From: Beijerinckiaceae bacterium RH AL1 | GTDB taxonomy: Bacteria; Pseudomonadota; Alphaproteobacteria; Rhizobiales; Beijerinckiaceae | Length of the DNA: 64,000 nucleotides | Direction: 5' to 3' | Assembly: GCA_901457705.2 (NCBI GenBank) | Contig: LR590083.2 | Span: 2,728,597 to 2,792,596 of the forward strand | Shown: positions 2,833 through 54,125 of the stretch, piece after piece | Position numbering within the stretch: position 1 is the stretch's first letter | Layout of the letters: every line of letters begins with the position of its first letter | Position numbers and translations under genes: made by a program | Notes under the pieces: model-generated | Told to the model about the DNA's origin: nothing | Seen by the model: the letters and a program-made list of their open reading frames with translations, nothing else | Databases searched by the model: none

Positions 2833-3698
2833 GCCGCCCGCTCTCGCAGCGCAGCCGCCAGCGTCGTCTCGCCCTCGAGCTCGACCGGGCCCGTCATGAT
2901 CACGTGATCGTCGGCGCGCCACTCGACCGTGAGCGTGCCGCCGGGCAGCGTCACCTCGGCCTTGCGCCGCGTGCGCCCCGTCGCCGCGGCGGCAACGAGG
3001 GTGGCGCAGGCCCCGGTGCCGCAGGCCAGCGTCGCGCCGGCGCCGCGCTCCCACACGCGCAGGCGGATCGTCGCGTCGTCCACCACCTGCGCGAAGGAGA
3101 CGTTGGCGCGCTCTGGAAAGGCCGGCGCGTGCTCGACCGGCGGCCCGAGGCGGCCGATGTCGATGCCCGCTGCGTCCTCGACGAAGAAGACGGCGTGCGG
3201 GTTGCCCATGCTCAAGGCGTAGGGCCGGCCGAGCGCGGCCACGGCCGGATCGTCGATATGGAGGTCGAGCGCCTTGAAGTCGTCGGCGCCGGAGCGCAGC
3301 GGGATCCGCGCCCAGTCGAACACTGGCGAGCCCATGTCGACCGAAAAGTCCCAAGTGCCGACGCGGCGGCACTCGAGCTGGCCCGCCTGAGTCTCCAGCC
3401 TCAGCGTCTCGCGCGGCGAGCTCTGCAGCATGACCCAGGCGACGCAGCGCGTGCCGTTGCCGCAGGCGCCGGCCAGCGAGCCGTCTACATTGTAGATGCG
3501 CAAAAAAGCATCGGTGCCGGCGGTGACGGGATCGTGGATCGTCATCAGCTGGTCGAACGCCAAGCCGGGCGCGGCGGCGATAGCGCGCGCCTCGTCGGCC
3601 GTCGGCACGAGGTCGGTGCCGCGCAGGTCGGCGACGACGATGGCGTTGCCGGCGCCGTTCATGCGAACGAGGTTGCGGATGGCGAGGGCGTCGCGCAT
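2829..3698 (-). CDS. dapF: Diaminopimelate epimerase
   Basis: DapF interconverts LL- and meso-diaminopimelate, the penultimate step of lysine synthesis and the source of the peptidoglycan cross-linking residue. Both active-site cysteines are visible: C79 in ACGNGTRC and the second in LACGTGACA. The family N-terminus FxKMNGxGN appears here as [12 protein letters not shown]. Starting at the ATG at 3698 gives 289 residues, normal for alphaproteobacteria. The open frame extends much further upstream, but that part is low-complexity antisense sequence. The stop overlaps the GTG of mtaB, and a dapF-mtaB pair is common in this order. Confidence 0.96.
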
Positions 3699-51505: not shown

Positions 51506-53244
51506 TTACCGCAGCTTGTAGGCCATGCGCACGCAACCCCAATGGCGCCCGCGCAGGAACAGCGGCGCGTCGAACTCCATGCGCAGCTCGATCGCATCGC
51601 CCATGTCGCGAGCGTAGCTCTGCACCAGGAACGGCTTCAGGTTGCGCGCGGCGGCGAGCCCCGTCTTGTCGTCGAAGATGCGGCGCATGCGCGAGTAACG
51701 CAGGTTCCACACAGTGTCGCCGAGGCGCGGCGGTCGCGAGAAGCGCAGGTTGTGCACGGGGTTGAAGCCGTTGCGGTCCTGCAGCAGGCAGAAGTCGGGC
51801 AGCGGCGCGACTTCGAGCTCGCGTTCCACGATGTGGCGGACGTGCGGCTCCAGCGCGGCCACGGACTCGCACAGGTACTGCGCCGGCTCGGTGGCGCCGT
51901 CGCGGACGTAGGCCGTGGAGAAGACGTGGTCCTCCCTGATCACGCCGGCCGCCAGCGCCCGTTCGAGCGTCGCCATCACCTCGGCGGCGACCGCCTGGAC
52001 GCGATCGATGTAGGGCTGGTAGGTCACGCGGACGCGGCGCAGCTCGTCCTCGATCCGCGTCAGCAGGAGAGCCGACGGCGCGACGAGCATCGCCTCGAAG
52101 CCCGCCATGGTCGGCGTCAGCAGCCTGATCGTGAAGGCGCCGAGCGGCGCGAACTCCACCTCTGCGTCCTCGCCGAGACGCACCGAGGCCGCATCCATCT
52201 CGATCTGCAGCGCCTCGGGCGAGAGCTCGATGAGCCGCACCGCGTGGCGCTCGCCTTGGCGCCGCAGCGTGCCGGCGAGGTCGACGGGCCAGCGCTCGGA
52301 GCGATCGTCCCCGTCGACCTCGGCTTGGCGCAGCACGATCGACGCGCGCTCGCTCAGCCGCTGGAACGCCGCGCGCGCGGCCTCGGACGCCGATTCGGCG
52401 GACGCGGTCATGCTGTGCACCGCGCCGCCGATCTCGCGCATGCGAGCGGCATTCGCGCGCACCTTCTGGGCGAGCTTGGCGATCTCGTCAGAGCCGACGC
52501 CGATCTCGCGCGTCTGCTCGCCTTGCGCGATGACGGCATCGCTGACAGCCTTGAAGACCTCGTCGAGGCCGCTCATGACGGCATCGGCCGCCTGCACCTC
52601 GGTCATGTTGATCTGCGCGCGGCCGCGCACCCGCTGCACCGAGGCGGCGATCTCGCGCGTGGCGCGCTCGGTCTGCTGCGACAGCTCCTTCACCTCGCCG
52701 GCGACGACCCGGAAGCCGGCACCGGCTTCCCCGGCGCGTGCCGCCTCGATCGTCGCGTTGAGCGCCAGAAGGTTGGTCTGCGCCGCGATGCCCGAGATCA
52801 TCTTGATGACGCGCTCGATGTCGCCGATCGCCTCGATCAGCTCCTCGACGCTGCCGAGCGCGCGCGCGAGCGGCCGTGCGCCTGCGCAACGCTGTCGGCC
52901 GCGCCGGCGAGGCGCTCCTCGATGACGTCGGCATGGCTCTGCAGCCGGTCGACCGAGGCCGCGAACTGATCGGCGCGCGTGCGGGTCAGCTCGGCCGTGC
53001 CGTCGAACTCGGCGGAGAAGGCCGTCATCTCGTCGACGACGTCGACGGCATCGCGCAATACGCGGCCGAGCGCGATGTTGCTCTCGGTGGCCGTGCCGAT
53101 GCCGGCGAGCAGGTCGGTCTGCGCGGCACGACGCGTCGCGCTGGCGTCGAGCGTCGGCGACGGCGCAGGATGCGGCGGCGCGGGCGTCGGCACGGCCGCG
53201 GGCACCATCTCAGAAGCTTTTGATGCGTCGCGCCAACCGAACAT
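51506..53244 (-). CDS. Soluble methyl-accepting chemotaxis protein with PilZ-like and C-terminal sensor regions, apparent frameshift
   Basis: The protein has no membrane segments. The signalling tip is clear: [22 protein letters not shown]-terminal to it are a PilZ-like segment (~270-345; [13 protein letters not shown], but without clean RxxxR and D-x-S-x2-G motifs) and a region ending [20 protein letters not shown] and [16 protein letters not shown], which is seen at the end of some soluble receptors. The frame breaks at about 52869-52871 (AQAHGR, then [11 protein letters not shown] in another frame). One added C/G restores 579 residues. A perfect CtrA box lies 47 bases upstream of the ATG. 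Confidence 0.83.
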
Positions 53245-53290
53245 GCGTCAGTTTCTTGTGTCGTGCAAAACGATCAAGCACACGCAAAGT

Positions 53291-53307
53291 TTAAGCTCGG
53301 ATTAACC
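53291..53307. promoter_or_regulatory. Perfect CtrA-type box upstream of the chemoreceptor gene
   Basis: TTAA (53291-53294), GCTCGGA, TTAACC (53302-53307) is an exact TTAA-N7-TTAA match with the preferred CC extension. It lies in the 77-base gap between fdhD and the chemoreceptor gene and 47 bases before the latter's ATG. CtrA control of motility and chemotaxis genes is well known in alphaproteobacteria. Confidence 0.65.
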
Positions 53308-53321
53308 TTGATCGGCTTCCG

Positions 53322-54125
53322 CTATTTCTTCAGCCGATCGGCACCGTGAAAGACGGTGAGTGTGTCGCGGCGGGCGATCGCGACGAGGGTCACGTCGAGG
53401 GCGCGGGCGCGCTCGATCGCCAGCGACGTCGGCGCCGAGATCGCGACGAGGGTGCGGGCGCCGAAGCTCGCCGTCTTCTCGACCATCTCGAACGAGCAGC
53501 GGCTCGTGATCACGACGACCCCCGACGTGGGATCGACCTCGGCGCGCAGCGCGGCGCCGATCAGCTTGTCGAGCGCGTTGTGGCGGCCCACGTCCTCGCG
53601 CACCATCGCGATCTCGCCGTCTAGAGCGGCCCAGGCCGCGCCGTGCACGGCGCGCGTCGCGATGTTGAGCGTCTGGCGCGTGTCGAGCGCCTTCAGCGCG
53701 CGCTCGATCGCCTGGACCGAGACGTGTGGCGCCGGACCATCGGCGGCGCGGGCCCGGCGCAGCGCCTCGATGTCGTCGATGCCGCAGACGCCGCAGCCGG
53801 TGCGCCCGGTCATCGCGCGCTGGCGCGCGAGATGGGCGTGCAGGCGGTCGCCGGCGAGCGCGATGCGCAGCCGCACGCCGTCGTCCTGCGGGCTGACCTC
53901 GACGCCGCGGATCTGCGCGGCGCGCTCGATCACCCCCTCGGTCAGGCTGAAGCCGTAGGCGAAGTCGACGAGATCGGCCGGCGTCAGCATCATCACCGCA
54001 AACGGCACGTCCGCGAAGGCGACCTGCACCGGCGTCTCGACCGCGACTTCGCGCGTGTCGTCGCGGACGCTGCCGTCGCCGAAGGCGATGATGCGGGAGG
54101 GAACGCTCGTGGTGGGGTCGCTCAT
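53322..54125 (-). CDS. fdhD: Formate dehydrogenase accessory sulfurtransferase FdhD
   Basis: FdhD passes sulfur from IscS to the molybdenum cofactor of formate dehydrogenases. The 267-residue protein has the redox cysteines in GRTGCGVCGI (C-x2-C), AVHGAAW, REDVGRHNALDKLIG and SRCSFEMVEK, all family hallmarks. The start ATG overlaps the stop of the HAD gene (ATGA). No formate dehydrogenase subunit gene lies in the window. Confidence 0.95.
   Translation of the reverse strand: MSDPTTSVPSRIIAFGDGSVRDDTREVAVETPVQVAFADVPFAVMMLTPADLVDFAYGFSLTEGVIERAAQIRGVEVSPQDDGVRLRIALAGDRLHAHLARQRAMTGRTGCGVCGIDDIEALRRARAADGPAPHVSVQAIERALKALDTRQTLNIATRAVHGAAWAALDGEIAMVREDVGRHNALDKLIGAALRAEVDPTSGVVVITSRCSFEMVEKTASFGARTLVAISAPTSLAIERARALDVTLVAIARRDTLTVFHGADRLKK

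Follow-up and report, generated by a model that had tools for sequence, protein, structure and literature searches.

The described systems closest to the locus analyzed here are the CtrA-bound promoters of Caulobacter crescentus and the CtrA-controlled chemoreceptor genes of Sinorhizobium meliloti. In the accessible part of the Caulobacter study (Zhou et al. 2015, PMC4287350), CtrA-bound promoters, among them those of rcdA, ftsK, and flagellar genes, carry a TTAA-N7-TTAA motif, and full motifs near −35 activate transcription in the predivisional cell. Our genome has this motif in common with Caulobacter, its targets overlap with those named in that part of the paper, and at our locus, as there, a single box stands a short distance before the gene; the transcription start and its timing in the cell cycle were mapped in Caulobacter, and we infer both here. 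In S. meliloti, which belongs to the same order of bacteria, CtrA directly controls mcpT, mcpU, mcpW, and mcpZ according to the available sections of Pini et al. (2015, PMC4433202). The likeness lies in the action of CtrA on chemoreceptor genes, predicted in our case; the genes themselves differ from ours, which encodes a soluble receptor of PilZ/Cache-like type. The CtrA consensus of Hyphomonas neptunium is given as TTAA-N7-TTAAC, with 211 of 222 sites intergenic, in the accessible text of PMC7200025, and our box matches that consensus exactly on the + strand; the words chemotaxis, chemoreceptor, and methyl-accepting are absent from the main text of that paper. The predicted alphaproteobacterial CtrA regulons, as far as the accessible part of the report goes (Brilli et al. 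2010, PMC2877005), do not name our receptor family. Like the receptor described here, methyl-accepting chemotaxis proteins (MCPs) of Magnetospirillum can carry PilZ domains, and Cache is a usual MCP sensor domain; unlike in our receptor, the Magnetospirillum Cache domains are extracellular, and the available text contains no occurrence of CtrA and no mention of the receptor layout found here (PMC12442639). Control of chemoreceptors by CtrA is already known in Sinorhizobium; what appears to be new in detail is this family of receptors and how widely the box is conserved; among titles and the opening parts of abstracts, in a search that most subscription journals fall outside, we recognized no paper on this receptor family.

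A CtrA-Type Box between fdhD and a Chemoreceptor Gene

The window (the whole 64-kb stretch of DNA that was analyzed) contains TTAA-N7-TTAA exactly once, at positions 53291 to 53307, where a direct check of the + strand reads TTAAGCTCGGATTAACC; the pattern appeared in 0 of 100 dinucleotide shuffles. All eight core bases of the CtrA box are matched (8/8), together with the C that follows the second TTAA on the + strand, so the perfect CtrA box reported in the initial annotation is present base for base and is unique in the window. TTAA is as rare in this DNA as had been said, with 20 occurrences in the window, five of them within called genes. The exact TTAA-N7-TTAACC consensus that had been placed before the receptor stands on the + strand, but its TTAAC end lies opposite to the receptor, on whose strand the box reads TTAATCCGAGCTTAAAC (pattern GGTTAATCCGAGCTTAA). 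Because the TTAA core is palindromic, the orientation of the box is ambiguous.

The upstream neighbor of the receptor gene, on the same (−) strand, is fdhD, encoding formate dehydrogenase accessory sulfurtransferase (53322 to 54125). The gap between the two genes runs from 53245 to 53321, bounded by the receptor ATG at 53242 to 53244 and the fdhD stop codon ending at 53322, and its 77 bases agree with the length first given. Within it, the box is separated by 14 bases from the 3′ end of fdhD and by 46 bases from the ATG of the receptor gene. We considered and rejected regulation of fdhD by the box, which lies beyond the 3′ end of that gene. No sigma-70-like promoter was found between 53200 and 53400, a point against the CtrA reading, though CtrA promoters need not carry one.

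CtrA in the Genome and Predicted Promoter Function

We looked for CtrA, whose absence had been named as speaking against a CtrA box, and found it encoded at G000:C1:2428121-2428801, with 83% identity over residues 1 to 227 to a Caulobacter CtrA query. The next-best regulators by the same query are paralogs at 39% and 37% identity. SciP, which modulates CtrA activity in Caulobacter according to the accessible text of PMC4433202, is encoded about 2 kb from ctrA. Upstream of ctrA itself, by 111 bases, is a TTAA pair of the N10 rather than the N7 form (L070; G000:C1:2428913). Matches to motility components in the genome number two for flagellin, three for the CheW domain (in two open frames), and eight for the MCP signaling domain.

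The 46 bases between box and ATG leave room for the box to lie near −35. Phosphorylated CtrA would bind both TTAA half-sites, close to promoter position −35, and recruit RNA polymerase, probably activating rather than repressing transcription; with the first base of the box at −37, the transcript would begin some 24 bases upstream of the ATG. Production of the receptor would coincide with that of flagella and other components of motility, presumably in the phase or cell type in which CtrA is active. It is improbable that CtrA or a paralogous response regulator instead binds and represses, or that binding acts mainly elsewhere than on the receptor. The genome does encode the paralogs at 39% and 37% identity, and half-sites over −10 repress in Caulobacter, whereas full motifs near −35 activate there (both from the accessible part of PMC4287350). 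Against an effect elsewhere is the arrangement of the gap, in which fdhD terminates and which only the start of the receptor gene faces.

Spacing of TTAA Pairs across the Genome

TTAA pairs separated by seven bases (N7 pairs) number 28 in the 4.35-Mb genome, against three for the reversed control pattern. A search of spacings 3 to 12 gave 56 forward matches. The 50 among the matches listed comprise 23 N7 pairs and 27 of other spacings (one N3, two N4, one N5, seven N6, three N8, three N9, four N10, four N11, and two N12), and with five further N7 sites added the N7 share becomes 28 of 56; one pair lies outside the matches listed and the five added sites, and its spacing is not among these per-spacing counts. 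The background expected at any one spacing is about three pairs (up to seven), and conservation aside, any single N7 site is perhaps roughly 10 to 25% likely to be background, that is, 75 to 90% likely to be more than that.

None of the 28 N7 sites falls within a called open reading frame (ORF), one of them (L009) overlapping a stop codon, and in that respect the motif is not equally frequent inside genes, the outcome that had been named as counting against a CtrA site. This comparison cannot discriminate, because all 27 other-spacing pairs among the matches listed are intergenic too, and we rejected intergenic location as evidence for CtrA. Where a genome is rich in GC, the intergenic position of a TTAA motif is no evidence; its spacing and conservation are. 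The evidence that discriminates is the N7 excess, the CtrA-type genes behind some other N7 sites, and the fact that the box is conserved ahead of related receptor genes. The intergenic controls also lend some substance to an explanation by chance, in which TTAA pairs gather in the AT-richer gaps of a GC-rich genome and an N7 pair came to lie before the receptor by luck. The roughly three pairs expected at each other spacing fit such an account; the 28 at N7, against one to seven at every other spacing, do not.

Genes behind Other N7 Sites

The nearest called start is 40 to 95 bases downstream of 18 of the 28 N7 sites. The window site was scored at 82 bases in this count, from a called start that is unsupported by same-genus proteins, homology placing the distance at 46. 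The genes behind other sites include those for FtsE (50 bases from site to called start), a PdhS-like cell-division kinase (55), FtsK (69), RcdA (77), a plasmid RepA (92), a CckA homolog (172), and ClpX (246). RcdA, ClpX, FtsE, HemE, RepA, and the ppsR subfamily model scored above NCBIfam cut-offs. FtsK and PdhS gave strong matches that fell short of theirs, and the gene matching CckA is truncated where its locus ends. The CckA-side site is also 68 bases from a divergent gene (L004), for which FliO had been a guess by reading, dropped for lack of any Pfam or NCBIfam match. For several of the 28 sites, no CtrA-type target is obvious, which counts against the CtrA reading: some stand before small proteins that match no family, one precedes a porin-like protein, and one a gene that by reading only is of recombinase type.

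The gap that separates hemE from its neighbor ppsR, the PEP-synthase regulator gene by profile match, contains two CtrA-type boxes at a distance of 61 bases (L066:3001-3015 and 3062-3076; G000:C1:4223354 and 4223415). We take this pair to resemble the CtrA-bound Caulobacter replication origin beside hemE, and the gap is a candidate replication origin. The box 92 bases before repA is on the 119.5-kb second contig (L067:3001-3015; G000:C2:7538) and hints that plasmid replication or partition genes may be tied to the cell cycle; our literature search for CtrA binding (ChIP-seq) at repABC found no paper.

The other receptors of the genome make a weak case as a CtrA-box family. With starts taken from our own gene caller, 8/8 core bases were matched before one of the eight MCP genes, that of the window itself. 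L051 and L055 have 7/8, L049 and L054 a TTAACC half-site with 6/8, and L053 6/8; L050 has no site in the scanned region, and the 5′ end of the L056 gene lies outside its locus. As to the flagellins, two TTAACC half-sites lie in intergenic DNA upstream of the flagellin gene at locus L167, and no TTAACC half-site was found at locus L168.

Conservation Upstream of Related Receptors

A first set of relatives comprised 12 loci, of which L018 is without the 5′ end of the gene. The upstream site matched 8/8 core bases in L022, 7/8 in L017 and L020, and 6/8 in L019, L025, L026, and L028, and no site with at least 6/8 was present in L021, L023, L024 (start not located), or L027. The L022 site, from another genus of the same family, is 47 bases before a GTG taken as the start. 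Three of the loci are from the same genus as the window: L018, L017 with 7/8, and L019 with only 6/8. This weaker match and the four loci where no site reached 6/8 count against the CtrA reading.

The second set consisted of the best 80 of 528 loci, 77 of them usable (L090 and L133 were left out for short upstream DNA and L073 for want of a suitable start); Bradyrhizobium contributes 33 of the 77, and L078 and the L017 locus of the first set are one and the same piece of contig. Within the 150 bases upstream, 55 of the 77 receptor genes have an N7 site with at least 7/8 core bases; among other genes from the same loci the count is 12 of 511. These control genes were called by a simple program that scores codons and had been trained on the window, and their starts were made differently from the ortholog starts. 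Forty-three of the 55 sites lie 45 to 58 bases before the assigned start, and 28 at exactly 50, distances that carry error since ortholog starts were assigned by an expected-length rule. Other spacings occurred in 1 to 16 of the 77 orthologs, the highest being N8 (16/77). TTAACC or GGTTAA within 150 bp was seen in 58/77 orthologs and 29/511 controls. Most Bradyrhizobium loci carry TTAACCCTGATTTCAT, or a close variant, on the sense strand, that is, a TTAACC half plus a TTCA half.

By genus group, hand-set from record titles, sites with at least 7/8 precede the receptor in Bradyrhizobium (29/33), Roseibium/Labrenzia (7/9), Rhodopseudomonas (4/5), metagenome-assembled genomes (MAGs) of Beijerinckiaceae (3/3) and Hyphomicrobiales (2/3), Afipia (2/2), Stappia (2/2), Methylopila (1/1), and a Hyphomicrobiaceae MAG (1/1). 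Weaker groups, counted against the CtrA reading, are Methylobacterium (3/8), Microvirga (1/8), Salinarimonas (0/1), and Pseudolabrys (0/1). Means over genera are 0.66 for N7, 0.30 for N8, and 0.01 to 0.10 for the remaining spacings, the raised N8 value again counting against. Taking the first-listed representative of each group gives 10/13 against 12/511 (Fisher p ~4 × 10−13, the groups not being fully independent).

A lucky N7 pair in an AT-richer gap is very improbable in the face of this frequency before related genes, at a largely constant distance, and its rarity before the controls. The box is very probably a genuine CtrA binding site that forms part of the promoter of the chemoreceptor gene. 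The tie between receptor and CtrA that was drawn from the motif at the outset is upheld as a prediction by the spacing excess, the CtrA-type targets, and the ortholog conservation, and CtrA control of the receptor is, as a sequence-based prediction, well supported.

The Receptor Gene and Its Frameshift

The receptor gene is one base short in the assembly and is read there as two ORFs on the − strand in different frames. The 5′ ORF (52837 to 53244; 135 aa) starts with MFGW, comparable to MFKW in L017 and MMFRR in L019, and stops after the frameshift, at 52837. The 3′ ORF (51506 to 52801; 431 aa from ATG) encodes the rest of the MCP signaling domain (PF00015), a PilZ-like barrel, and a Cache-like C-terminal domain. 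The frameshift falls in a GC-repeat stretch (52838 to 52884) that has 47 nt in the window and 48 nt in L017 and L019, where the frame is intact. The description of the gene as encoding a soluble chemoreceptor holds as far as domain and hydropathy go, but the initial annotation had overlooked that the gene is frameshifted in the assembly. PF00015 matches the 3′ ORF alone with E 5e-22 (100.9 bits in the genome search). No membrane segment is evident by hydropathy, the highest 19-residue Kyte-Doolittle means being 1.4 for the 3′ ORF and 0.99 for the 5′ ORF, with 1.12 in L017 and 1.08 in L019; a mean above 1.6 is reached in 8 of 77 relatives, the highest being 1.81.

The frameshift reflects either recent inactivation or an assembly error in the GC repeat, and in this assembly the predicted promoter would drive a frameshifted gene. 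It is possible, though the balance is against it, that the box is the relic of a CtrA site whose promoter persists without a working product, a reading compatible with genuine CtrA binding. The missing base relative to two intact same-genus genes and the stop soon after it would fit inactivation, and the still perfect box would date any such loss to recent times. However, assemblies commonly err by one base within GC repeats, and the 3′ part of the receptor matches same-genus proteins over its full length at 52 to 54% identity.

PilZ-Like and Cache-Like Domains

Behind the MCP hairpin of the soluble receptor is a module of PilZ-like and Cache-like domains (51509 to 52312, − strand). A structure model of the last 271 residues, built with 38 sequences (pLDDT 91), shows a barrel of PilZ type and, after it, a sensor fold resembling Cache/PAS. 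For the PilZ-like domain (52019 to 52312), the closest solved structure by sequence is a PilZ domain (E 0.0075), and Pfam PilZ was recognized in 29 of the 38 members, not including the window copy. The C-terminal sensor-type domain (51509 to 52054) was matched by no Pfam model, Cache models included, at E 0.01 in the 38 members scanned; its model resembles the YycG/WalK sensor domain (Z 13.3, rmsd 3.5 over 136 residues) and a Cache domain (5g4y; Z 11.6, rmsd 2.6 over 136).

The motifs RxxxR and [DN]xSxxG, which we take to be the c-di-GMP ligand motifs of PilZ, are absent from the window copy and from two aligned same-genus relatives. RxxxRxP is present in 67 of 77 relatives, and both ligand motifs in 37 of 77. 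We tentatively suggest, at somewhat less than an even chance, that across the Hyphomicrobiales CtrA directly times cytoplasmic chemoreceptors with a Cache-like sensor and PilZ behind the signaling hairpin, so that CtrA would decide which cell type can steer by an internal signal (c-di-GMP or a metabolite), and that the genus of the window has lost the PilZ ligand motifs and kept the CtrA-type site. The analysis as a whole turns a single motif into a testable prediction, a CtrA-driven promoter common to receptor genes of this kind across many genera, Bradyrhizobium, Rhodopseudomonas, and Roseibium among them; if it is true, a receptor for internal signals would be tied to the developmental cycle.

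The order fdhD–receptor is shared by L017/L078 (one contig) and L019. As a general rule this neighborhood was rejected: by tblastn over 93 loci (L016-L028 and L073-L152, some with only about 1 kb of upstream DNA and L018 without its 5′ end), fdhD was found only in L016, the window's own locus, L017/L078, and L019. Among these loci, L090 (JAVEEG010000368.1) is a contig labeled as a Frankiaceae MAG that carries the receptor type at 36% identity and is perhaps misbinned.
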